Shown: piece after piece, positions 11,311 to 61,213 of the stretch
Numbering within the stretch: position 1 is the first letter of the stretch
Layout: each line of letters starts with the position of its first letter
NCBI GenBank assembly: GCA_026625625.1
Contig: CP113055.1
Span: forward strand, 188,501-252,500
Direction: 5' to 3'
Length of the DNA stretch: 64,000 nt
Source of the DNA: Blastomonas sp. SL216
GTDB taxonomy: Bacteria > Pseudomonadota > Alphaproteobacteria > Sphingomonadales > Sphingomonadaceae
Notes under the pieces: model-generated
The model's input: only the letters and a program-made list of their open reading frames with translations
Databases searched by the model: none
What the model was told of the DNA's origin: nothing
Made by a program: the position numbers and the translations under genes

Positions 11311-12102
11311 TCAGGTCGCGTCCACGCCATCATAGTCGATGGCCTTGGCCGCCGCGCCCGACATGATGAAGCCGATCGGGCGTTCGGCCTCTTCGTTCAG
11401 ATGGCCGATCAGGCTTGCAGTGCGCGCGAGCAGCGAGATGCCCTTGAGCGCGCCCAGGGGAAAGCCGACATCGAGCATCACTGCGGGGATCGCGCCGTTG
11501 ACATTGATCGGCAGCGGGCGGCCCAATGTCTCGGGCAGGCAATCGCGCAGCGCATAGAGCATGCCGATATGCTCGCCGACAACGCCATGTTCTTCGGCCA
11601 TCGCCAGCAGCAGCAGTGCGCGCGGATCGCCAGCGCTGTGCTGGGGGTGACCGAAGCCGGGGATGGCCTGTTTGGTGGCGCGCAGGGTGCGGACGCCTTC
11701 TGCGGCAATCTCGGCGGCCGATCCGGCGCCATCGCGCTGCCTGGCCACCAGATCGGCATAGAAGCGTCCTGCGACCTCGGCACTGCCCAGCACGACCGAT
11801 CCGCAGCCCAGCAGTCCCGCGGCCACCGCGCCGTGGAACGCTTCGGGCGCGGCGGCATAGGTCATCCGCGCGGCGACGACGCTGGGCACCAGGCCGTGTT
11901 CGGCAATCGCTGCCAGCACCGCATTGGCGAACAGCTTCTGCACCTCGGTCGGCTCGTTTCCGGTGACCAGCAGCCAGAAATAGCTGGTAAAGTCCATCTT
12001 GCCGATAATGTCGCCGCACAGGTCCTTGCCGCGAACGGTGATGCTTTCCGCATCGGATGTGCAGATGGCGGTGAAGGGTGCGTCCTGCTTGCCGATGCGC
12101 AT
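11311..12102 (-). CDS. Citryl-CoA lyase-like protein (citrate synthase superfamily)
   Basis: A 263-residue protein equal to the C-terminal catalytic part of citrate synthase, the size of stand-alone citryl-CoA lyases, which cleave or condense a 3-hydroxy-3-carboxy acyl-CoA. The longer upstream open frame is discarded: ATG 12102 has AGAGGA about 10 nt upstream. Catalytic-type residues visible are His90 (AFHGA) and His152 (GFGH followed by DPRA). The position expected to hold the third catalytic residue, Asp, reads Asn202 (NVNGAI). It is divergent from the CoA-transferase gene, whose product could supply its CoA-ester substrate, and shares the operator pair at 12158-12189. The citrate, citramalate and other 3-hydroxy acid series are all possible. 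Confidence 0.75.
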   Translation of the reverse strand: MRIGKQDAPFTAICTSDAESITVRGKDLCGDIIGKMDFTSYFWLLVTGNEPTEVQKLFANAVLAAIAEHGLVPSVVAARMTYAAAPEAFHGAVAAGLLGCGSVVLGSAEVAGRFYADLVARQRDGAGSAAEIAAEGVRTLRATKQAIPGFGHPQHSAGDPRALLLLAMAEEHGVVGEHIGMLYALRDCLPETLGRPLPINVNGAIPAVMLDVGFPLGALKGISLLARTASLIGHLNEEAERPIGFIMSGAAAKAIDYDGVDAT

Positions 12103-12222: not shown

Positions 12223-13374
12223 ATGGCCAAGCCGCTTGCCAATGTCACCGTGCTGGAAATGGGCACGTTCATCACCGGCCCTGCGGCCGGCATGATGCTG
12301 GCCGATATGGGTGCCGATGTGATCAAGGTCGAGCGGCCCGATGGCGGCGATCCGTTCCGCGCCTTTCGTGGAGGCTTCTACAGCCCGCATTTCCAGACCT
12401 ATAACCGCAACAAGCGCTCGATCACGCTCGATACGCGCGGTGGACCCGATCTGGAGGCGTTCGACCGCATGATCGCGTCGGCCGATGTGTTCATCCAGAA
12501 TTTCCGCCCGGGCGTCGCCGACAAGCTCAAGGTCGATCCCGTTCGGCTGCGTGCGATCAATCCGCGGCTGATCTATCTCTCGATCTCCGGCTTTGGCGCA
12601 ACCGGGCCCGATCGTGACCGTCCAGCCTTCGACACCGTGGCGCAGGCGGCGAGCGGTTTCCTGCGGCTGCTGGTCAACCCGGCCAATCCGCGCGTCGTCG
12701 GCCCGGCGCTGGCCGATGCGATTACCGGCTTTTACGGCGCCTATGGCGTGCTTGCCGCGCTGCACGAGCGCGCGAGCACCGGCAAGGGCCGGCTGGTCGA
12801 AGTCTCGATGTTCGAGGCGATGGCGCATTTCAATCTCGACGATTTCACCCATTATTTCTCGGCAGGCGAAGTGATGGGCCCGTACAGCCGCCCCAATGTC
12901 TCGCAATCCTATGTCTTCCAGTGCCAGGGTGGCGACTGGCTGGCACTGCATATGTCGTCTCCGCCCAAATTCTGGGAGAATCTGGCGATTGCCGTCGGGC
13001 ATCCCGACATGCTGGACCGGCCCGAATTTGCCAGCCGTGACGCACGCATCGCCAATTACGAGAAGGTGGCCGCCTTCCTGGCGCCGCTCTTTGCCGCGCG
13101 CAGCCGCGCCGATTGGTGTGCGACGCTGGAGCAGCTCGAAGTGCCGCATTCGCCGGTTTACAGCGCACCGGAGGTAGTCGAGACACCCCAGGCGCAGCAT
13201 CTGGGCCTGACGGTCGAGGATCCCGATGGGCCGCATGGGCGCTTCCGCACCATCCGGTCGCCGGTCAGCTTCGATGGCGAGCGCATGACCAGCGTCACCG
13301 CGCCGCCGGTGCTGGGGCAGCATAATGACGAGCTGCTGGGCCTGGACCCCGCGACGTCAGCCGCTGCCGAGTGA
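12223..13374 (+). CDS. Type III (CaiB/BaiF) CoA-transferase
   Basis: A 383-residue family III CoA-transferase, which moves CoA between carboxylic acids through aspartyl intermediates. The start at 12223 has GGGAG about 8 nt upstream and gives the usual N-terminus (LANVTVLEMGTFITGPAAG); an earlier in-frame start at 12172 would fall inside the operator. The catalytic aspartate is Asp165 in the ALADAITG block, followed by the standard TGKGRLVEVSMFEAM stretch. It lies opposite the citryl-CoA-lyase-like gene, suggesting that it activates a hydroxy-di- or tricarboxylic acid which the lyase then splits. Donor and acceptor acids are unknown. It is probably co-transcribed with the IclR gene. Confidence 0.88.
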   Translation: MAKPLANVTVLEMGTFITGPAAGMMLADMGADVIKVERPDGGDPFRAFRGGFYSPHFQTYNRNKRSITLDTRGGPDLEAFDRMIASADVFIQNFRPGVADKLKVDPVRLRAINPRLIYLSISGFGATGPDRDRPAFDTVAQAASGFLRLLVNPANPRVVGPALADAITGFYGAYGVLAALHERASTGKGRLVEVSMFEAMAHFNLDDFTHYFSAGEVMGPYSRPNVSQSYVFQCQGGDWLALHMSSPPKFWENLAIAVGHPDMLDRPEFASRDARIANYEKVAAFLAPLFAARSRADWCATLEQLEVPHSPVYSAPEVVETPQAQHLGLTVEDPDGPHGRFRTIRSPVSFDGERMTSVTAPPVLGQHNDELLGLDPATSAAAE

Positions 13375-13439
13375 CCGCGCACGCGACAGGTGACATCATC
13401 ACCTTGCCTGCGCGATCTCAAGGGGCTAGCGCTTCAACC

Positions 13440-14252
13440 ATGGAAGACCCCGCCAAGCCCGGCAAGGACAGCGAATATCTCTCGACCCTGGAACGCGGGC
13501 TCAAGGTGCTGCGCGCCTTCGATGCGAGCCATCCCGAGATGCAGCTGAGCGAGGTTGCGCAGGTCACCGGGCTCAGCCCCGCCGTGGCCAGGCGCTGCCT
13601 CAACACGCTGGTGCAGCTCGGCTATGTCGCGCAGTTCGGGCGCAAGTTCCTGTTGCGGCCCGAAGTGTTGAGCTTCGGCACCGCCTATCTGTCATCGATG
13701 AACGTCGAGCAGGTGGTGCTGCCGCCGCTGCAGAAGCTGCGCGACGATACCGGCGACAGTTCGTCCATGGCGGTGCTGTCGGGCACCGACATCCTGTATG
13801 TCGCGCATGTGTCGACCAACCGGCGCATCCGCCTGGGGGCCAATGTCGGCACGCGCTTTCCGGTCCATGCCACGTCGCTGGGCAAGGTGCTTCTCGCCTT
13901 CCAGCCCGAGGCGGTAGTGGCGAAGTACATGAGCGCGGTCAGCTTGCAGCGGTTCACCGAGCGGACGGTCACCACGCCCGAAGCCATGGCGCAACGGCTG
14001 CAGAATGCGCGCGAGACCGGTTACGATTCGGCGCTGGACGAGCTGGACTACGGCATCGTTTCGGTCGCGGTGCCGGTATTCGATGCGCAGCGCCAGGCGA
14101 TTGCATCGATCAACTGCTCGACCTCGACCACGCGCATCTCGCAGGACGAGCTGGTGCGCACGCGCCTGCCGATGCTGCGCGAGGCGGCCGCCGAGATCAG
14201 CAGCGCGCTCCAGCGCTGGCCTACGCTGATGCATTCGCTGCAGCAGAACTGA
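13440..14252 (+). CDS. IclR-family transcriptional regulator (PcaR-like)
   Basis: A 270-residue regulator with an N-terminal winged helix-turn-helix (about residues 15-85: STLERGLKVLRAF, LSEVAQVTGLSPAVARRCLNTL) and a C-terminal IclR effector domain (about 95-265). The protein resembles the PcaR/PcaU/PobR branch that controls aromatic-acid catabolism. Start choice is uncertain: ATG 13440 gives a typical length, whereas GTG 13371 overlaps the CoA-transferase stop and would add 23 residues. It sits inside the cluster, and two promoter regions carry identical paired palindromes, so I infer that it regulates all three local transcription units in response to the substrate or an intermediate. Confidence 0.88.
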   Translation: MEDPAKPGKDSEYLSTLERGLKVLRAFDASHPEMQLSEVAQVTGLSPAVARRCLNTLVQLGYVAQFGRKFLLRPEVLSFGTAYLSSMNVEQVVLPPLQKLRDDTGDSSSMAVLSGTDILYVAHVSTNRRIRLGANVGTRFPVHATSLGKVLLAFQPEAVVAKYMSAVSLQRFTERTVTTPEAMAQRLQNARETGYDSALDELDYGIVSVAVPVFDAQRQAIASINCSTSTTRISQDELVRTRLPMLREAAAEISSALQRWPTLMHSLQQN

Positions 14253-14411: not shown

Positions 14412-14503
14412 CAATTTACCTCCCCTGTAACTCGCCCGCAAAGCCGGAAAAGCGCTTCACGAACGACGCGGCGGGAATCACTGGATGAGGGGAGCAGGTG
14501 CAT

Positions 14504-16690
14504 ATGCCCGCGATTTGGAACAAGGTGCTGCTGGCAGGTTCGGTTTCGGCTTTTGCGCTGCTTGGCGCCATGCCAGCCTATGCGCAGGATCAGGCCGCGA
14601 CGGAGAGCGCCAGCGACGGCGAGATCGTCGTGACCGCGCTGCGCCGCGATTCAACGCTGCAGGATACGCCCGCCGCCATAACCGCCTTCAACGCTGAAAC
14701 AATCGAGAATGCGGGGATCGACAGGGCAGCCGATTTCATCGGGCTGACATCGAACGTCCAGCTGATCGAAACGCAGAATGCGGGCAATGCCTTTGTCATC
14801 ATCCGCGGGATCACCCAGAACCGCAATTCCGAGCCCTCGGTCGCCGTGGTGGTGGACGGAGTGCAGCAGGTCAATGCTGCCCAGTTCAGCCAGGAGCTGT
14901 TCGATATCGAGCAGATCGAAATCCTCAAAGGCCCGCAAGGTGGCCTGTACGGTCGTAACGCCATCGGCGGCGCGATCATCATCAACACCAAGCAGCCCAG
15001 CGACCAGTTCGAGGGCAGGGTGTTTGCCGGGATCGACAATGGCTTCGGCTATACGTTGCGCGCCGGAATTTCCGGACCGATCAGTGACACGTTGAAGTTT
15101 CGCCTGTCCGGCTCCTATCGCGACACCGATGGCTATATCCCCAACACCTTCCTGGGCGAGGATGCCGATCCGCTTGAGGATATCTCGCTGCGCGGTAAGC
15201 TGCTGTGGACGCCGACGGACCAGCTGACCGTTGACCTGCGCGCCTCGATGTCGCTGCTGCGCACCCAGGCGCTGTATTACAATATCGTCGCCGATGTGAA
15301 CGACACCAGCCTGCCGGTGCGCGTCAACAATGCTGGGCAGAACGATCGCGACATCTACAATGTCTCGGCCAAGATCGACTACAAGGCCGATTGGGGATCG
15401 ATCACCTCGGTCACCTCCTACGACACCCTGTCCGAAATCCTGACCGGCGATGCGTTCAACTTCCTGCCGATCCAGGAATCGCTGTTCTTCGCGATCTTCG
15501 GCTTTGACCTCAACCAGAGCCAGTTCCTCGACGTCGAGGCGATCAGCCAGGATCTGCGCATCCAGTCGAATGACGACAACGCTTTTACCTGGTCCCTGGG
15601 TGGCTATTTCATCGATACCAACCGCTATATCTCGACCGGCAACATGGTCGATACGGGCGCTGGCGTGTTCCCGGTCTTCCGCACCCCGAGCACCGATCCG
15701 CGCAACCCGCAGGCGACCTTCCTGGCGGATTCGCAGAACAACTTTGCCTGGGCGGTCTATGCCAATGTTGGCTATGAATTCTCCGATGCGTTCCGCGTCG
15801 ATGCGTCGCTGCGTTACGACAAGGATCGCCGCCGCAACCGCACGCTGACCCCGACCGCGTTCATCCCGGTCGTTCCGGGCTTCCCCACTGGCCGTACCGG
15901 CGAAGTGCGCCGCGAGACGTTCGACGAATGGCAGCCCAAGGTCACGCTGACCTACAAGCCGGCCGAAAATGTCACGATCTATGGCGGCTATAGCCGTGGC
16001 TTCCGCTCGGGCGGCTTCAACCAGACCGGCGTCGGCGCGGTGGCAGCCGGTACCGGCGTGGTCGGCGTCGCGGACATCTATGAGGCCGAAGTCGCAGACA
16101 CGTTCGAACTCGGGGTCAAGACGACGCTGTTCGACCGCATGCTGACGCTGAATGCCAGCGCCTATACCACCAAGTCGGAAAACGGCTATTTCTTCGTCTT
16201 CCTTGCCGCGAACTCCACCCAGAATCTCGGCAATGTGCCCGAGGTACAGCTGCAGGGCTTCGAGATCGACGGCACGCTGCGTCCCGCGCGCGGGCTCGAC
16301 ATCAATTTCGGCCTGGGCGTGACCTATAGCGAGATCAAGGAATTCCCCGATCCCACCGTGATCGGCAACGAGGCGCCGTTCATCTCGCGCTATACGATCA
16401 ACCTGGGCACCCAATATGAGAGCAACCTGGGTGACAGCGATCTCAAGGGCCGCATCCGGGTGGATTATAACCGTACCGGCAAGACCTGGTTCGATGTGCC
16501 CAATTCGACGGTGCGCCGTCCGGTCGATCTGGTCAACGCGCGCCTGACGCTCGACGGTGGTGCCTGGTCGCTCACCGGCTTCGCCGACAATCTGTTCAAC
16601 GAAAAATACAATGCCGAGTTCTCGCCCGGCGGCTTCGTGTTCAAGGCACGCCCGCGCGTCTACGGGCTCGAGGCGCTGTACAAGTTCTGA
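14504..16690 (+). CDS. TonB-dependent outer membrane receptor
   Basis: A 728-residue receptor: signal peptide ending Ala-Tyr-Ala-Gln (about residue 28), a TonB-box-like segment (EIVVTAL, about 40-46), a plug domain (about 55-165, with VVVDGVQQ, EILKGPQGGLYGRNAIGGAIIINT) and a 22-strand-type barrel ending in Tyr-Lys-Phe with a terminal aromatic residue. ATG 14504 is preferred to GTG 14498, with a GAGGGGAG stretch upstream. It is the first gene of an apparent five-gene operon (gaps 24, 41, 3 and 19 nt) of catabolic enzymes, so it probably imports their substrate, a use of TonB receptors common in sphingomonads. No siderophore genes are nearby. Confidence 0.93.
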   Translation: MPAIWNKVLLAGSVSAFALLGAMPAYAQDQAATESASDGEIVVTALRRDSTLQDTPAAITAFNAETIENAGIDRAADFIGLTSNVQLIETQNAGNAFVIIRGITQNRNSEPSVAVVVDGVQQVNAAQFSQELFDIEQIEILKGPQGGLYGRNAIGGAIIINTKQPSDQFEGRVFAGIDNGFGYTLRAGISGPISDTLKFRLSGSYRDTDGYIPNTFLGEDADPLEDISLRGKLLWTPTDQLTVDLRASMSLLRTQALYYNIVADVNDTSLPVRVNNAGQNDRDIYNVSAKIDYKADWGSITSVTSYDTLSEILTGDAFNFLPIQESLFFAIFGFDLNQSQFLDVEAISQDLRIQSNDDNAFTWSLGGYFIDTNRYISTGNMVDTGAGVFPVFRTPSTDPRNPQATFLADSQNNFAWAVYANVGYEFSDAFRVDASLRYDKDRRRNRTLTPTAFIPVVPGFPTGRTGEVRRETFDEWQPKVTLTYKPAENVTIYGGYSRGFRSGGFNQTGVGAVAAGTGVVGVADIYEAEVADTFELGVKTTLFDRMLTLNASAYTTKSENGYFFVFLAANSTQNLGNVPEVQLQGFEIDGTLRPARGLDINFGLGVTYSEIKEFPDPTVIGNEAPFISRYTINLGTQYESNLGDSDLKGRIRVDYNRTGKTWFDVPNSTVRRPVDLVNARLTLDGGAWSLTGFADNLFNEKYNAEFSPGGFVFKARPRVYGLEALYKF

Positions 16691-16714: not shown

Positions 16715-17317
16715 GTGGCACGCATCCTCATCCTCTATTATTCGGGCTATGGGCATACCGAGGTCATGGCGAATGCCGTGGCCGATGGGGTCAATGCGGT
16801 CGACGGCTGCGAAGCGGTGGTCAAGCGCGTGCCCGAGCTGGTGCCGGATGAGGTCGCTGCCGGGGCCGGCATGAAGGTCGATCAGGCCGCGCCCTATGCC
16901 AGTGCGGACGAACTGGCCGATTATGACGGCATCATCTTCGGTACGCCTACCCGCTTCGGCAACATGGCGGCGCAGATGCGCAACTTCCTCGACCAGACAG
17001 GCGGGCTGTGGGCCAAGGGCGCGCTGATCGGCAAGCCGGGCAGCGTGTTCGTCTCCACCGCCAGCCAGCATGGCGGGCAGGAGACGACGATCACCTCGTT
17101 CCACACCACCTTGCTGCATCACGGCATGATCGTCATCGGTCTGCCCTACAGCTTTGCCGGCAACACCATCATGTCCGAGATCAGCGGCGGCACGCCTTAT
17201 GGCGCGAGCACGATTGCAGGCGGCGACGGATCGCGCATGCCTTCCGAAAACGAGCTTGCAGGGGCCCGTTTTCAGGGCGAGCATGTCGCCCGGATCACGC
17301 TGAAGCTGTCGGCCTGA
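16715..17317 (+). CDS. WrbA-like NAD(P)H:quinone oxidoreductase
   Basis: A 200-residue flavodoxin-fold protein of the WrbA family, FMN-dependent two-electron quinone reductases that avoid semiquinone radicals. The FMN phosphate loop is [12 protein letters not shown] (residues 7-18) and the second flavin loop is [20 protein letters not shown] (about 72-91). It starts with GTG at 16715, with AGGAAAG 5 nt upstream. In this operon a quinone reductase suggests that a hydroquinone, catechol or quinone intermediate occurs in the pathway, or that the cells need protection from one. Confidence 0.88.
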
Positions 17318-17358: not shown

Positions 17359-17901
17359 ATGAGCCAGCTAGTCAACCGCCTGCACCATACTGCCTATACC
17401 ACGCATGACCTTGAGGCGACCCGCGCCTTTTACGAGGACGTGCTGGGCTTTCCGCTGGTCGCGACCTATTGCGAGAAGGACGAGCTGTTCGGCAAGGAGC
17501 GCACCTATTGCCACTGCTTCTTCGCGATGAAGGATGGCAGTGCGCTCGCCTTTTTCCAGTTCGCGAACGCCGATGACCAGGCCGAATTCAGCCCGCCGAT
17601 CCCGGAATCGCCGTTCCACCACATTGCGCTGCATGTCGATCAGGATGCGCAGGTGGAGCTGGAACGCCGTATCGCTGCCGCCGGGATTGTCGAGCCGCAG
17701 ACCTATATTCTGGAACATGGCTATTGCCGGTCGGTCTATGTGAAGGACCCCAATGGCATGATCATCGAATTCACCTGCGATGCGCCCGAGGCGCTGGCGA
17801 TCGAGGATCAGGTGCGGGCCAAGGCGCGTGCCGAACTGGCGCGCTGGCTGGCAGGCGATCACAGCAACAACAACACCTTCCGCAGCGCAGAAGCAGCCTG
17901 A
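17359..17901 (+). CDS. VOC-superfamily metalloenzyme, possible ring-cleavage or lyase enzyme
   Basis: A 180-residue protein with the paired beta-alpha-beta-beta-beta modules of the vicinal oxygen chelate fold. The candidate metal triad is His9 or His10 (LHHTAY), His88 (FHHIALHV) and Glu137 (NGMIIEFTC), the His-His-Glu set of extradiol dioxygenases and glyoxalases. The C-terminal 40 residues are a charged extension beyond the fold. A good GAGGAGGAA ribosome binding site lies just before ATG 17359. Extradiol cleavage, isomerisation and glyoxalase chemistry are all possible. The operon context (quinone reductase before, alpha/beta hydrolase 3 nt after) makes ring cleavage followed by hydrolysis an attractive guess. 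Confidence 0.82.
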   Translation: MSQLVNRLHHTAYTTHDLEATRAFYEDVLGFPLVATYCEKDELFGKERTYCHCFFAMKDGSALAFFQFANADDQAEFSPPIPESPFHHIALHVDQDAQVELERRIAAAGIVEPQTYILEHGYCRSVYVKDPNGMIIEFTCDAPEALAIEDQVRAKARAELARWLAGDHSNNNTFRSAEAA

Positions 17902-17904
17902 CTC

Positions 17905-18783
17905 ATGGGCGGCCCGGTCGGCAAGCTGGGCTGTGCCTATTCCATGACCCCGCCTGATGCGCGGCTGGGCGGCGAGGCCTTCTGGCTCGACGTCGCCGAT
18001 GGCTGTCTCGCGGTCGAGCGGGTGGGGCAGGGGCCTGCGGTCCTGCTGCTGCACGGCTGGACGCTGGACCGGCGGATGTGGACGATGCAGGCGCGGGCGC
18101 TGGCGACCCGGTTCACGCTGATCGCGATCGACCGGCGCGGCTTTGGCCAATCGACCGCAGCCCCCGACCGTGCGCGCGAGGTGGATGACCTTGCTCGGCT
18201 GGCGGACCAGCTTAATCTGGCGAGTGTCCACCTTGTCGGCATGTCGCAGGCTGGCGCTACGGCGATGCAGTTTGCGCAGCACCATCGTGACCGGGTCGCG
18301 ACGCTGGTGCTGCAGGGCATTTCGCTGGCCGGCATTCCCGATCACGCCAATGCATCGGACCGCATTCCGCTGGCGGATTATGCCGACATGGTCCGCAATG
18401 ATCAGCTCGATGCCATGAAGCGGCATTGGGCCGACCATGCGCTGATGGCGGGGCTCGAAGCGGAATCGGCCAGGATCGGCGCGGCCATGCTCGCCGACTA
18501 TGATGGCCGCGATCTGCTCGCGGGGCCTGCGGGTCCATCGGCGCGGCTGGACGAGGTGGCGGCACTGCCGATGCCCGTGCTGGCGATGACCGGTTGTGCG
18601 GACACGCCCTGGCGGCGCGACGTCACCCGCGCCATCGCGCGCACTGCGCCGCTGGGCCAGGCGCGCTTCATTCGCGATGCGGGCCATCTGTGCAACCTGT
18701 CGCACCCGGTCGAGTTCAACGCAGCGCTTTCCGCCTTTCTGGCCCGGCCGCTGCAGCCGGTGCCCGATGCCATCAACGATTGA
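17905..18783 (+). CDS. Alpha/beta hydrolase
   Basis: A 292-residue alpha/beta-hydrolase-fold enzyme with the oxyanion His50-Gly51 (LLLHGW), nucleophile Ser114 in GMSQAG, acid Asp233 (TGCADTPWRR) and base His261 (DAGHLCNLSHP). The architecture resembles 3-oxoadipate enol-lactonase and meta-cleavage hydrolases, so a lactone, ester or C-C bond substrate fits. The first ATG, 3 nt after the VOC stop, is used; a second at 17944 would remove 13 residues and cannot be excluded. It is co-transcribed with the VOC protein and the MetE-like gene. Confidence 0.88.
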   Translation: MGGPVGKLGCAYSMTPPDARLGGEAFWLDVADGCLAVERVGQGPAVLLLHGWTLDRRMWTMQARALATRFTLIAIDRRGFGQSTAAPDRAREVDDLARLADQLNLASVHLVGMSQAGATAMQFAQHHRDRVATLVLQGISLAGIPDHANASDRIPLADYADMVRNDQLDAMKRHWADHALMAGLEAESARIGAAMLADYDGRDLLAGPAGPSARLDEVAALPMPVLAMTGCADTPWRRDVTRAIARTAPLGQARFIRDAGHLCNLSHPVEFNAALSAFLARPLQPVPDAIND

Positions 18784-18802: not shown

Positions 18803-19933
18803 ATGTCCGCGCCTGATCGCTTCCTTACCACCCATGTCGGCAGCCTGCCGCGCCCCGACGCCCTGCTCGACCTGGTCTTTGCGCGCGAAGGCGGCGAGCA
18901 GGTTTCCGAAGAGGCGTTCGATGCAGCGGTCGAGGACGCCACCGCCTATGTCATCCGGCGTCAGATCGAGGCGGGGGTCAGCATCGTCAACGATGGCGAG
19001 CAGTCCAAGCCCAGCTACGCCACCTATATCAAGCACCGGCTTTCCGGCTTCGGTGGCGAGGCGGGGCAATATGAATTTGCCGATCTGGAGGCATTTCCCG
19101 GCGCAAAGGCGCAGGTGTTCGGCAACAAGGGCCGGGCCAGGCGGACAGCGCCTGCCTGTACAGCGCCCATCACCGTGGTCGACATGGAAGCCCCGCGGAT
19201 CGACGCCCAGCGCCTGAAGCGGCTAGCCAATGGCCATGCGACCTTCATGTCGGCAGCGTCTCCGGGGGTCACCGCGCTGTTCTTTCCCAACCAATATTAT
19301 GCCAGCGACGAGGAATATGTCTTCGCGCTCGCCGAGGGGCTGCGGCACGAGTACGAGACCATCGCTGCAGCGGGGATCATCCTGCAGGTCGATTGTCCGG
19401 ACCTCGCGATGGGCCGCCATGTGCAATTCACCGAACTCAGCCTCGAGGACTTTCGCAAGCGCATCGGCATGAACATCGCGGCGCTCAATCACGCATTGCA
19501 GAACATTCCTGCCGAACAGCTGCGCATGCACCTGTGCTGGGGCAACTATCCGGGGCCGCACCATTGCGATGTCGCGTTGGATGAGATTGCCGATATCGTC
19601 TGGACCGCCAAGCCGCAGACCGTGCTGCTTGAAGGTGCGAACCCGCGCCACGCGCACGAATTCGCGTTCTTCGAAAAGCATCCCCTGCCCGAAGGCAAGA
19701 TCCTGTGCCCGGGCATGATCGAGCCGCAGAGCCCCTATATCGAGCATCCCGAACTCATCGCGCAACGCATCGGACGGTATGCCGATCTGCTGGGGCGCGA
19801 ACGGGTGATGGCGGGCGTGGACTGCGGCTTCTCGGTCCATGCAGGCAGCAACAGCCTCGATCCCGAAATCGTCTGGGCCAAGCTGCGCGCGCTTTCCGAT
19901 GGCGCCAAGCTGGCCAGCGAGCGCTTCTGGTAA
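18803..19933 (+). CDS. MetE-like zinc protein (catalytic barrel only), catabolic context
   Basis: A 376-residue protein corresponding to the C-terminal zinc barrel of cobalamin-independent methionine synthase; full MetE is about 750 residues. ATG 18803 has GGAG 9 nt upstream; the longer open frame overlapping the hydrolase gene is not used. The THVGSLPRP opening matches the barrel entry of MetE. All four zinc ligands are visible: His243 and Cys245 (MHLCWGN), Glu277 (LLEGANPR) and Cys341 (GVDCGF). Stand-alone MetE barrels include folate-independent methionine synthases and epoxyalkane:coenzyme M transferase of similar length. Its place at the end of an IclR-controlled catabolic operon suggests thiol alkyl- or methyl-transfer to or from a pathway intermediate rather than methionine synthesis. 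Confidence 0.85.
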   Translation: MSAPDRFLTTHVGSLPRPDALLDLVFAREGGEQVSEEAFDAAVEDATAYVIRRQIEAGVSIVNDGEQSKPSYATYIKHRLSGFGGEAGQYEFADLEAFPGAKAQVFGNKGRARRTAPACTAPITVVDMEAPRIDAQRLKRLANGHATFMSAASPGVTALFFPNQYYASDEEYVFALAEGLRHEYETIAAAGIILQVDCPDLAMGRHVQFTELSLEDFRKRIGMNIAALNHALQNIPAEQLRMHLCWGNYPGPHHCDVALDEIADIVWTAKPQTVLLEGANPRHAHEFAFFEKHPLPEGKILCPGMIEPQSPYIEHPELIAQRIGRYADLLGRERVMAGVDCGFSVHAGSNSLDPEIVWAKLRALSDGAKLASERFW

Positions 19934-19949: not shown

Positions 19950-21089
19950 TCAGCCGGTCAGCGGGAGCCAGACTTCAAAGCTGCTGCCTTCACCCGGAGC
20001 GCTGCGCTTGAGCAGGATGCGCCCGCCATGGAGCTCGACGAGCTGCTTGACCAGCGCCAGGCCGATGCCGAGCCCGTCCTGGTTCATCCGCCCGTCCGGA
20101 GCGACCTGGGCGAAGATGTCGAAAATCCGGCCCTGCTGCTCGGCGGCGATGCCGATGCCATTGTCCGCGACCTCGATCTTCGCCCAGCGGTCCTCGGTGC
20201 GCAGGCCAACGTCGATGGTGCCGCCATTGGGCGTGTAGCGCGCGGCATTGCTGATGAGATTGCCGACAATCTGGGTGACGCGGGCATGGTCGCCGCGCAG
20301 CGTGATCGGCTGATCCGGGAGCTGGAGATGGAGCGCATGGCCCGCCGCGTCGATGGTCGGCTGGACCGTCTCGATCGCAAAGGTGACCACGTCCTGCAGC
20401 ACCAGGTCTTCATGCCTCAGCGAAATCTTGCCTTGTTCGATGCGTGAAATGTCGAGCAGGTCCTCGACCAGCCGGGTCATGTGGCTGAGGCTGCGGTTCA
20501 TCGCGCTGCGGATCTCGGCGACGTCTCCGGTCCCTTCGCGCCGTTCCAGCAGGCGCAGCCCTGCAACCAGGGCCATGATGGGGTTGCGCAGCTCGTGCGC
20601 GAGCACGGCGAGAAAGCGGTTCTTCTGTGCATCGGTGGCCTGAAGCTCGATGCCGAGCGCGGCGAGGCTGTCGCGCTGGGTCGCAATCTGGCGCCGCTGG
20701 TTATACAGCTCAAAGAACACATTGGCCTTCGACCGCAGGATATCGGCCTCGATCGGCTTCTGGATGAAGTCGACGGCGCCTGCCTCGTACCCGCGAAAGC
20801 GCCGCGTGGTATTGCCGGTGCCAGCGGTCACGAAGATGATCGGGACATGGCGCGAGCGCTCGCTGCCGCGCATCAGTTCGGCCAGTTCGAACCCGTCCAT
20901 GCCCGGCATCTGCACATCGAGCAGCGCCAGCGCATAGTCGTTGACCAGCAGCAGTTCCAAGGCCTCTTCGCCGCTGCGGGCACAATGGCAGTGCAGGCCT
21001 TCGCGCTTGAGCAGGGCCTCCAGCGCCACGAGATTTTCGGGCAGGTCATCGACCAGCAGGAAGCGGACGGGTTGCTCGGCGGCGGTCAT
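19950..21089 (-). CDS. Response regulator-histidine kinase (REC-HisKA-HATPase)
   Basis: A 379-residue cytoplasmic protein with an N-terminal receiver domain (about 9-125, phospho-acceptor Asp58 in LLDVQMPGMDG, conserved Lys in IQKPIE), a short coiled linker, a HisKA domain with His165 (LAHELRNP) and a C-terminal HATPase_c domain (N-box NLISNAARYTP, DNGIGI, DGLGIGLALV). It has no transmembrane segment, so it probably relays a signal from the large hybrid kinase at 22473. The start at 21089 makes an ATGA overlap with the cheB-like stop; a slightly earlier in-frame ATG at 21101 exists. It is the last gene of a four-gene minus-strand operon. Confidence 0.9.
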   Translation of the reverse strand: MTAAEQPVRFLLVDDLPENLVALEALLKREGLHCHCARSGEEALELLLVNDYALALLDVQMPGMDGFELAELMRGSERSRHVPIIFVTAGTGNTTRRFRGYEAGAVDFIQKPIEADILRSKANVFFELYNQRRQIATQRDSLAALGIELQATDAQKNRFLAVLAHELRNPIMALVAGLRLLERREGTGDVAEIRSAMNRSLSHMTRLVEDLLDISRIEQGKISLRHEDLVLQDVVTFAIETVQPTIDAAGHALHLQLPDQPITLRGDHARVTQIVGNLISNAARYTPNGGTIDVGLRTEDRWAKIEVADNGIGIAAEQQGRIFDIFAQVAPDGRMNQDGLGIGLALVKQLVELHGGRILLKRSAPGEGSSFEVWLPLTG

Positions 21090-21652
21090 GCCGCTGCCCA
21101 TTCGCGCAGATGGGTGACAATCTGGCTGAAGCTCATCGCCCGCGCGGTCGGGCACGCGGCGAGCGCGGCGGCGGGCATGGTAGAGACTTCGGCTGTAACA
21201 GGTTCCTCGGCAATCGCGATGCCGCCTGCTGCGCCGACGGCCTTGAGGCCAGCTGCGCCGTCATGGTTCGCGCCGGTCAGCACGATGCCGGTCAGCGTCG
21301 GGCCATAGGCATCGGCAGCGGTCTCGAACAACAGGTCAATCGCGGGGCGGGAATGGTTCACCGGCTCTTCGGCGGACAGGGCGATGGTGCCGCCCGCTTC
21401 CACCAGCAGGTGATAGTCTGCCGGTGCGAAATAGATTGTCCCCCCCGATGCCATTTCCTTGTCCTCGGCTTCCTTGACCTGAAGTGCGCATTTTGCGGCC
21501 AGCAGATTGACCAAGGCGTTGTCCCGGCGCGGGGGCACATGAACAACAACGAAAATGGGGACGGGAAAGTTGCCCGGCAAGGCGGGAAGAATCTGCGACA
21601 GCGCCTGCACGCCGCCGGCCGATGCGCCGATGACCACGGCCTTGCCGGTCAT
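21086..21652 (-). CDS. CheB-type methylesterase (catalytic domain only)
   Basis: A 188-residue CheB methylesterase domain without the usual N-terminal receiver. The catalytic triad is visible: Ser11 (VIGASAGG), His38 (VVHVPP) and Asp131 (LTGANHDGA). CheB removes methyl groups from glutamates of chemoreceptors; stand-alone catalytic CheB proteins next to CheR and hybrid kinases are found in signalling modules not devoted to motility. It overlaps the genes on both sides by 4 nt (ATGA at each end), so the whole cassette is translationally coupled. Activity would have to be controlled by a partner, since its own receiver is absent. Confidence 0.9.
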   Translation of the reverse strand: MTGKAVVIGASAGGVQALSQILPALPGNFPVPIFVVVHVPPRRDNALVNLLAAKCALQVKEAEDKEMASGGTIYFAPADYHLLVEAGGTIALSAEEPVNHSRPAIDLLFETAADAYGPTLTGIVLTGANHDGAAGLKAVGAAGGIAIAEEPVTAEVSTMPAAALAACPTARAMSFSQIVTHLREWAAA

Positions 21653-60603: not shown

Positions 60604-60612
60604 TTGCATTTT

Positions 60613-60629
60613 TATACCATTTTGGTATA
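60613..60629. promoter_or_regulatory. Palindromic operator of the brnTA module
   Basis: TATACCA (60613-60619) and TGGTATA (60623-60629) form a perfect 7-bp inverted repeat with a 3-nt centre, 9 nt after the uvrC stop and 10 nt before the toxin start. BrnT-BrnA complexes repress their own operon by binding such palindromes. The AT-rich site probably overlaps the promoter. Confidence 0.7.
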
Positions 60630-60639
60630 TCGGCGATCC

Positions 60640-60909
60640 ATGCAGTTCGAGTTCGATCCCGCAAAGAGCGCGTTGAACAAGCAGAAGCACGGCATCGATT
60701 TTGTCGAGGCGCAGGCGCTTTGGGATGGACGTGCCAGCTACATCATTGAAGCAAGGCATGACGGAGAACTCCGCTATGCCTTGATTGGCAAGATTGACGG
60801 GAAGGTCTGGACGGCGATCCATACCATTCGAGATGGGATGTTTCGGATTATTTCCGTGAGGCGGGGGCGTGAAGCAGAGGTGCGATATTATGAAGCCCAA
60901 GACCATTAG
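60640..60909 (+). CDS. brnT: BrnT-family type II toxin
   Basis: An 89-residue toxin of the BrnT family, RelE/barnase-like ribonucleases that cleave RNA. The family signature is clear: FEFDPAKSALNKQKHGIDF at the N-terminus and a C-terminal RIISVRRGREAEVRYYE, which carries the catalytic Arg/Glu/Tyr residues. ATG 60640 is preferred; the longer frame from 60604 starts in the uvrC stop and lies over the operator. It overlaps the antitoxin gene by 20 nt. Confidence 0.92.
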   Translation: MQFEFDPAKSALNKQKHGIDFVEAQALWDGRASYIIEARHDGELRYALIGKIDGKVWTAIHTIRDGMFRIISVRRGREAEVRYYEAQDH

Positions 60910-61213
60910 TGCAGAAGAATTTGACCGGATGTTCGACGATGGCGAGGACATAAGCGAATATCTCGATTGGTCGACAGCACGCCGGTTGCATGAGCCTGCC
61001 AAGCGCGTAAATGTCGATTTCCCCGCTGACGTCGTCTCAAAACTTGATCGCGCGGCAAAGCGACGCGGTGTTTCGCGTCAGGCATTGATCAAGATGTGGA
61101 TTGTGGCCCAACTCGATAACGAAGCCCTGGTCAACAGGTCGAGCAGCCGGAGCGAGGCGGTCGGAGCTGCCCAGCAATCCGAAAATGAACCGAAACTCGA
61201 CAACGCGGCCTGA
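60890..61213 (+). CDS. brnA: BrnA-family antitoxin
   Basis: A 107-residue ribbon-helix-helix antitoxin. The RHH core is VNVDFPADVVSKLDRAAKRRGVSR followed by QALIKMWIVAQL (about residues 44-80); the N-terminal part (SAEEFDRMFDDGEDISEYLD) binds the toxin. The C-terminal 25 residues are a Ser/Glu/Asn-rich extension. ATG 60890 has AGAGG upstream. It neutralises BrnT and, as a dimer, should bind the palindrome at 60613. Confidence 0.92.
   Translation: MKPKTISAEEFDRMFDDGEDISEYLDWSTARRLHEPAKRVNVDFPADVVSKLDRAAKRRGVSRQALIKMWIVAQLDNEALVNRSSSRSEAVGAAQQSENEPKLDNAA

Follow-up and report, generated by a model that had tools for sequence, protein, structure and literature searches.

A stand-alone MetE-type zinc barrel tied to a catabolic operon in Blastomonas sp. 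SL216: a tentative candidate for homocysteine-dependent demethylation

The zinc ligands of MetE are given as H641, C643, E665 and C726 and its homocysteine-binding side chains as S433, E484 and D599, and the E484 position is described as differing between core methionine synthase families (PMC7857596). We analysed a stretch of 64,000 nucleotides from the genome of Blastomonas sp. SL216 (hereafter the window), which encodes a MetE-like protein of 376 amino acid residues. With MetE (TIGR01371) this protein shares the barrel fold, the four zinc ligands and the three homocysteine residues, but it lacks the N-terminal folate half, belongs to a separate clade and is encoded in a catabolic operon. 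With MesD (3RPD; PMC7857596) it shares the stand-alone barrel and the same seven residues, and 3RPD is its top structural match, but again the clade is a separate one and the host genome has no match to MesX (PF08908). With DesA/LigM it would share the proposed overall job, the non-oxidative removal of aryl methyl groups, and DesA/LigM-type genes are neighbours of a related MetE-like clade, but DesA/LigM belong to the GcvT family and use tetrahydrofolate as acceptor (PMC12585457; NCBIfam scores); a DesA-like query, in a search that had no positive control, detected no DesA/LigM homologue in the Blastomonas genome. We tentatively propose that the MetE-like protein is a zinc-dependent homocysteine S-methyltransferase, which would demethylate a methylated aromatic compound in the probably aromatic pathway of its operon.

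The reading frame was confirmed by an ORF check on the window (376 residues plus stop), starts with ATG and is preceded by a TGGAG-like site. Relatives of the protein were confirmed in named genomes in 415 cases, the best 80 of which have 64–95% identity, the closest orthologues among them being those of Sphingomonas sp. 35-24ZXX (95%), Sphingomonas ursincola and Blastomonas natatoria (both 92%). An orthologue, defined by at least 64% identity over most of the protein, is present in 50 of 397 genomes of the family; G098, with two partial matches (62% and 54%) lying far apart, was left out of the 50. The changes between orthologues are mainly synonymous (pN 0.03 and pS 0.39 against L037; pN 0.05 and pS 0.46 against L038), and, because of these relatives, orthologues and substitutions, we consider the ORF to be genuine and not a chance one. 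A selenocysteine at a zinc ligand, read through an in-frame TGA (four homologues, one other family), was considered and rejected, the codons being, by eye, ordinary C-terminal stops.

Meth_synt_2 (PF01717; 44.6 bits, cut-off 21) is the sole Pfam domain of the protein and the Pfam search gave no N-terminal Meth_synt_1 folate domain (PF08267), which bears out an earlier interpretation made from the DNA letters alone (the sequence-only reading), namely that the N-terminal half of methionine synthase is missing. Seven NCBIfam models match the protein, all of them below cut-off, including the models for stand-alone methionine synthases, and the full-length MetE models failed (TIGR01371, 15.6 bits against 929.95; PRK05222, 17.5 bits against 541). 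In a MAFFT alignment, H243, C245, E277 and C341, which the sequence-only reading had correctly named as the zinc ligands, correspond to H641, C643, E665 and C726 of E. coli MetE, and S14, E66 and D197 correspond to S433, E484 and D599. The serine is present in 44 of the 45 aligned rows of the group to which the protein belongs (see below) and the glutamate in all 45. The length of 376 residues, also given correctly, had been noted as that of epoxyalkane:coenzyme M transferase (EaCoMT) and of core-MetE families; size alone says little, since YxjG-type rows (375 and 380 residues), an EaCoMT homologue (363 residues) and the operon clade have similar lengths.

AlphaFold predicts a barrel with confidence (pLDDT 81.9, pTM 0.86), the loops around the site being less sure. 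In the PDB the model is matched best by 3RPD, a B12-independent methionine synthase (23% identity; Z 34.6, 320 residues, 2.5 A), and by C-terminal halves of MetE with Z of 27.1 to 33.4 (1XDJ, Z 33.2, 334 residues, 2.5 A); uroporphyrinogen decarboxylases come next, with Z of 21.5 and below. We built an IQ-TREE tree of 53 rows, with E. coli MetE, 3RPD, a MesD-like tandem protein, the EaCoMT homologue, YxjG-type rows and a Streptomyces row as references. The nine operon-type rows group together firmly (support 100/99) and belong, with 36 others, to a group of 45 (support 90/96) from which all of these references are excluded; 3RPD pairs with the MesD-like tandem protein, apart from this group. 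The EaCoMT, MetE and Streptomyces rows are long branches and the deep joins are unsure. A placement inside a proven methionine synthase clade, combined with operon-independent expression, had been named as refuting the sequence-only reading; on the side of phylogeny, the protein falls outside all the reference synthase rows tested, and the phylogeny that had been called for separates it from the MetE, MesD and EaCoMT rows, in a tree without MesA, MesB and MesC.

The EaCoMT homologue of Nocardioides JS614 (L145), which is presumably the protein labelled EtnE and whose database record reads methionine synthase II family protein, is likewise a single barrel with the four zinc ligands and a CWGNY motif. 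However, N and K replace S14 and E66 of the window protein, the D at the third position being kept, and its neighbours are alkene/methane-monooxygenase-type and phosphosulfolactate synthase genes, which are not seen in the operon of the window; no coenzyme M genes were recognised among the operon genes. Because the homocysteine residues of MetE (S/E/D) are kept here against N/K/D in this one EaCoMT reference, we disfavour an epoxyalkane:coenzyme M function. The sequence-only reading had argued for an alkyl or methyl transfer from a catabolic intermediate to a thiol. Of these we still favour a methyl transfer, with homocysteine as the thiol, but the epoxyalkane:coenzyme M type loses ground on these residues. 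More broadly, homocysteine, cysteine or another thiol might attack a reactive ring-cleavage or quinone intermediate and form a thioether, by analogy with the action of EaCoMT on epoxides, and the common superfamily, similar size and CWGNY motif, as well as the WrbA of the operon, which suggests quinones, agree with such an alkylation. We consider it improbable, given the N/K against S/E difference from the single EaCoMT reference, the position of EaCoMT apart in the tree, albeit on a long branch, and a neighbourhood in which no recurring thioether-processing gene was recognised.

The metE-like gene starts 19 bp after the stop of the hydrolase gene and, because the next gene (19950-21155, minus strand) is convergent, it is the last of its run, as had been read from the letters (Table 1). 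The TonB/WrbA/VOC/hydrolase operon described there is present but longer than stated, as an IclR-type gene precedes the receptor gene, and a CaiB-type CoA-transferase gene and a divergent citryl-CoA-lyase-like gene are located just upstream of the operon. The L037 orthologue of the citryl-CoA-lyase-like gene product reaches 309.9 bits with the citryl-CoA lyase model (cut-off 193), and H9, H10, H88 and E137 of the VOC protein are invariant in an alignment of 37 sequences. For each of the receptor, WrbA, IclR and hydrolase genes, roughly half of the 80 loci compared have no copy. Promoter-like sites (4, against a mean of 1.8 in shuffles) and terminator-like sites (6, against 4.6) are little above shuffles, and the operon structure rests, for this reason, on spacing and conservation.

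Table 1. Features of the metE-like locus in the window. Locus counts refer to the best 80 of 415 relatives, with flanks of at most 10 kb, some of them cut by contig ends, and were recounted by tblastn.
Feature	Coordinates	Strand	Basis and occurrence
Citryl-CoA-lyase-like gene	11311..12102	-	match to PDB 6HXP, citryl-CoA lyase, E 1.4e-25; in 65/80 loci
CoA-transferase family III (CaiB type)	12223..13374	+	domain search; in 67/80 loci
IclR-type regulator	13371..14252	+	nearest PcaR/PcaU/PobR, 256.6 bits, below cut-off 284.75; in 44/80 loci
TonB-dependent receptor	14498..16690	+	Pfam; in 47/80 loci
WrbA, NAD(P)H:quinone oxidoreductase	16715..17317	+	NCBIfam 336.8 bits, cut-off 141; in 43/80 loci
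VOC-fold protein	17359..17901	+	possible metal enzyme or ring-cleavage dioxygenase; in 75/80 loci
Alpha/beta hydrolase	17944..18783 (alternative start 17905)	+	best NCBIfam PcaD, 86.4 bits, below cut-off 255.85; in 45/80 loci
metE-like gene	18803..19933	+	single MetE-type zinc barrel of 376 residues (PF01717)
Zinc-ligand codons of the metE-like gene	H243 19529-19531; C245 19535-19537; E277 19631-19633; C341 19823-19825	+	
Homocysteine-residue codons of the metE-like gene	S14 18842-18844; E66 18998-19000; D197 19391-19393	+	

Of the 80 loci, 31 also encode another stand-alone barrel, of MesD-like type, directly before the metE-like gene in 27 and close by on the other strand in four, so that 27 loci, mostly of Erythrobacteraceae, carry a tandem of two different MetE-type barrels. 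The MesD-like barrel of L046 (8976-9998) matches 3RPD at E 1.6e-57, and the zinc and homocysteine residues are intact in both of the copies aligned. The tandem gene is absent from the window.

The VOC gene of the operon, searched for at about the same identity level, is present in 52 of the 397 family genomes, among them all 50 with the metE-like orthologue, which is thus found in 50 of the 52 VOC genomes (Fisher value 1.2e-61, in which independence is overstated, the genomes being related). The two genes lie on one contig in 47 of the 50 genomes and are never more than 12 kb apart. The two genomes with the VOC gene and no orthologue (G007 and G246) retain the citryl-CoA-lyase-like, CaiB, IclR, VOC and hydrolase genes with no metE-like gene there, and a Niveispirillum plasmid stretch (L161) has the same operon, again with no metE-like gene. 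That the operon exists without the metE-like gene in these three loci, among whose listed ORFs we noticed by eye no replacement demethylase, is what would be expected if the MetE-like step were an add-on.

In the metE-like tree, a grouping of Blastomonas with the caiB relative L114 is rejected (p-AU 0.0004), and the caiB tree likewise rejects a grouping of Blastomonas with those Erythrobacter/Porphyrobacter rows in which the nearest metE-like gene is found (p-AU 0.0002), the constraint groups for each test having been drawn from the tree of the other gene. Because the two trees conflict, one of the genes, metE-like or caiB, has moved and yet the same neighbourhood was regained. Such regained proximity is better evidence of joint function than gene order alone, although an in-place replacement by a transferred copy would look alike. 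The metE-like proteins of Blastomonas and of Erythrobacter/Porphyrobacter (L040, L047, L055 and L061) are 89–93% identical, against 39–77% for the other operon genes. This contrast in identity, together with the conflict between the trees, points to a separate transfer of the metE-like gene into the same operon position. The co-occurrence in 50 of 50 genomes, the recurring neighbourhood and the conflicting gene trees support a functional tie of the metE-like gene to the catabolic operon, and the sequence-only reading, which had made this tie from gene order, is upheld on this point.

The Niveispirillum operon adjoins genes whose products pass the NCBIfam thresholds for LigA, LigK (the CHA aldolase), oxalomesaconate tautomerase and a class III extradiol beta subunit. 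In Rhodococcus rhodochrous (L162), citryl-CoA lyase, a CoA-transferase and a VOC protein of 59% identity are encoded together, and the cluster also has IclR regulators, a hydrolase, a PF19301 (LigXa C-terminal-like) Rieske oxygenase, a VanB-type reductase and an FAD monooxygenase; the annotation of the 20.5 kb compared includes no metE-like gene. An O-demethylation by the LigXa-like Rieske oxygenase is only a suggestion for this cluster, because PF19301 is a broad family. In Burkholderia glumae (L166), a citryl-CoA lyase of 51% identity is encoded beside an intradiol dioxygenase, a ring hydroxylase and a CaiB protein. The three neighbourhoods fit an aromatic pathway ending in CoA activation and citryl-CoA-type cleavage, and the operon probably degrades plant aromatics. 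Within flanks of at most 10 kb, some of them truncated at contig ends, none of the 80 operon-type loci has a match to the other 15 reference genes (DesA/LigM-type, MetF, PurU, LigA, LigB, LigJ, RraA, hydratase/lyase and others), and for this reason the evidence for methoxylated substrates, and some of that for an aromatic pathway, is borrowed from a clade of about 46% identity, from Niveispirillum and from the single Rhodococcus cluster.

This related clade is represented in the Blastomonas genome by a paralogue with 46% identity to the MetE-like protein, encoded elsewhere and adjoining a p-hydroxycinnamoyl-CoA hydratase/lyase gene (453.7 bits, cut-off 276). We compared 41 regions, namely that of the Blastomonas paralogue and 40 of the other 66 among the 67 matches listed (44–51% identity), a non-random set in which some regions are truncated at contig ends; L158 also belongs to the 66 but served as a source of reference genes and is outside the 41. 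A DesA/LigM-type gene is present in 23 of the 41 regions, the same 23 being found with looser cut-offs (the query reaches 849.9 bits for DesA, cut-off 800, and 634.7 bits for LigM, cut-off 580), MetF in 13 and HisD-type genes in six, and the hydratase/lyase gene occurs in one, being absent from other Blastomonas regions, and on one plasmid, that of Sphingobium RAC03. All seven zinc and homocysteine positions of MetE are kept in this DesA/LigM-linked clade, as recounted in the alignment. The clade has a support of 100/100 inside the group of 45, in which the main branch order is unsettled, so that it is related to the operon clade, a sister status being unsupported by the tree. The two clades have different partners, because none of the 80 operon-type loci has a DesA/LigM-type gene.

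Other relatives have other neighbours. A subclade of 47–51% identity (L171, L173-L175, L177, L187 and L158) travels with a HisD-type dehydrogenase gene and partly with cupin genes. On Rhodococcus and Dietzia plasmids (L141 and L148), a relative is encoded beside an HD protein, a 2OG-Fe oxygenase and a phytanoyl-CoA-dioxygenase-family protein; this layout may be reminiscent of PhnY/PhnZ phosphonate oxidation. Further plasmid-borne relatives lie near HisD and RraA genes (Ruegeria), and relatives also occur in haloarchaea. Given the HisD/cupin or other oxygenase neighbours, the wider family may use several donors. In the operon, too, the methyl donor could be another pathway-linked compound, such as a methyl ester, an N-methyl or an S-methyl compound, with homocysteine still as acceptor, as wider-clade members are found near phytanoyl-CoA-dioxygenase/HD or HisD/cupin genes and in haloarchaea, and the loci of the operon clade gave no match to a methoxyaromatic gene; we give this only a small chance, since aromatic-type genes adjoin both the operon, in Niveispirillum and in Rhodococcus, and the genes of the related clade.

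The retention of all zinc and homocysteine residues would also be compatible with a core methionine synthase, methylated from a general donor (methyl-THF, a methyl-corrinoid or another carrier), whose place in the operon would be a regulatory convenience, for example as a sink for 5-methyl-THF; in the related clade, the nearby DesA/LigM-type and MetF genes suit such a sink no less than they suit a direct demethylase. The Blastomonas genome that contains the window encodes MetH, and because of this the MetE-like protein is probably not the housekeeping methionine synthase of this host. MetH is matched in 35 of the 50 orthologue genomes, Blastomonas included, and the 15 without a match (G170, G142, G236, G395, G308, G204, G153, G021, G086, G244, G144, G238, G198, G273 and G076) have a completeness of 78–100%. 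Fourteen of these 15 also have no match to MesX, and the exception, G170, which was the only one matched among the 30 genomes searched, has a C-terminal fragment only. For Phaeobacter, it has been suggested that a Mes-like protein might serve as a second methionine synthase, and its deletion still left the shortening of the lag phase by DMSP (PMC12366255). Against a core synthase, PF01717 is matched again elsewhere in every one of the 15 genomes that lack a MetH match (in open frames of 374–515 residues, with model positions from 6), and these off-locus proteins could be their methionine synthases. Moreover, the co-occurrence with the VOC gene is complete whether MetH is present or absent, the protein has no folate domain and no SAM-, SAH- or B12-type RNA element was found in the window, where Rfam gathering scores give two tRNAs only. 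The MetE-like protein is not needed as a methionine synthase in the 35 genomes with MetH, while it might be in the other 15, and a core synthase role seems to us rather unlikely.

In the proposed demethylation, homocysteine would be bound through S14, E66 and D197, and the zinc ion, held by H243, C245, E277 and C341, would turn its thiol into a thiolate. The thiolate would then be methylated, directly or via a carrier, at the expense of an aromatic compound that bears a methyl group, most likely as a methoxy substituent, yielding methionine and the demethylated product. The latter would be handed to the VOC enzyme, the alpha/beta hydrolase, CoA transfer by the CaiB protein and citryl-CoA-lyase-type cleavage, in a step order that we infer. 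That homocysteine is the real acceptor thiol is suggested by the residues, and that an aromatic methyl ether is the donor by the gene neighbourhoods. Several points speak against a demethylase: one homocysteine would be consumed per methyl group, which is costly for a main catabolic flux; the operon exists without the metE-like gene in three loci in which no replacement demethylase was seen; and folate O-demethylase genes are absent next to the operon clade.

A wider claim, which we regard as rather unlikely, is that the MetE-like clade of aerobic bacteria and haloarchaea consists of catabolic non-oxidative demethylases, whose members described here would move the methyl group of methoxyaromatics straight to homocysteine, with no need for folate, B12 or oxygen. 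If true, this would constitute a third non-oxidative route, beside LigM/DesA (folate) and the corrinoid O-demethylases, by which lignin-type methyl groups would reach methionine on a B12- and folate-free path, and B12-free methionine could be made from plant methyl groups. Among the literature matches listed, the titles and the beginnings of the abstracts describe no MetE-like O-demethylase. Relatives of the protein carry a methionine synthase annotation in public records, so that, if the clade demethylates in catabolism, many genomes would be mis-annotated and predictions of auxotrophy would be unsafe wherever they treat these proteins as methionine synthases. The MetE-like protein is small and metal-simple, which makes the idea directly testable with the purified enzyme.

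Elsewhere in the window, at 60604-61213, we noticed by eye two small adjacent ORFs that resemble a BrnT/BrnA-type toxin-antitoxin pair.
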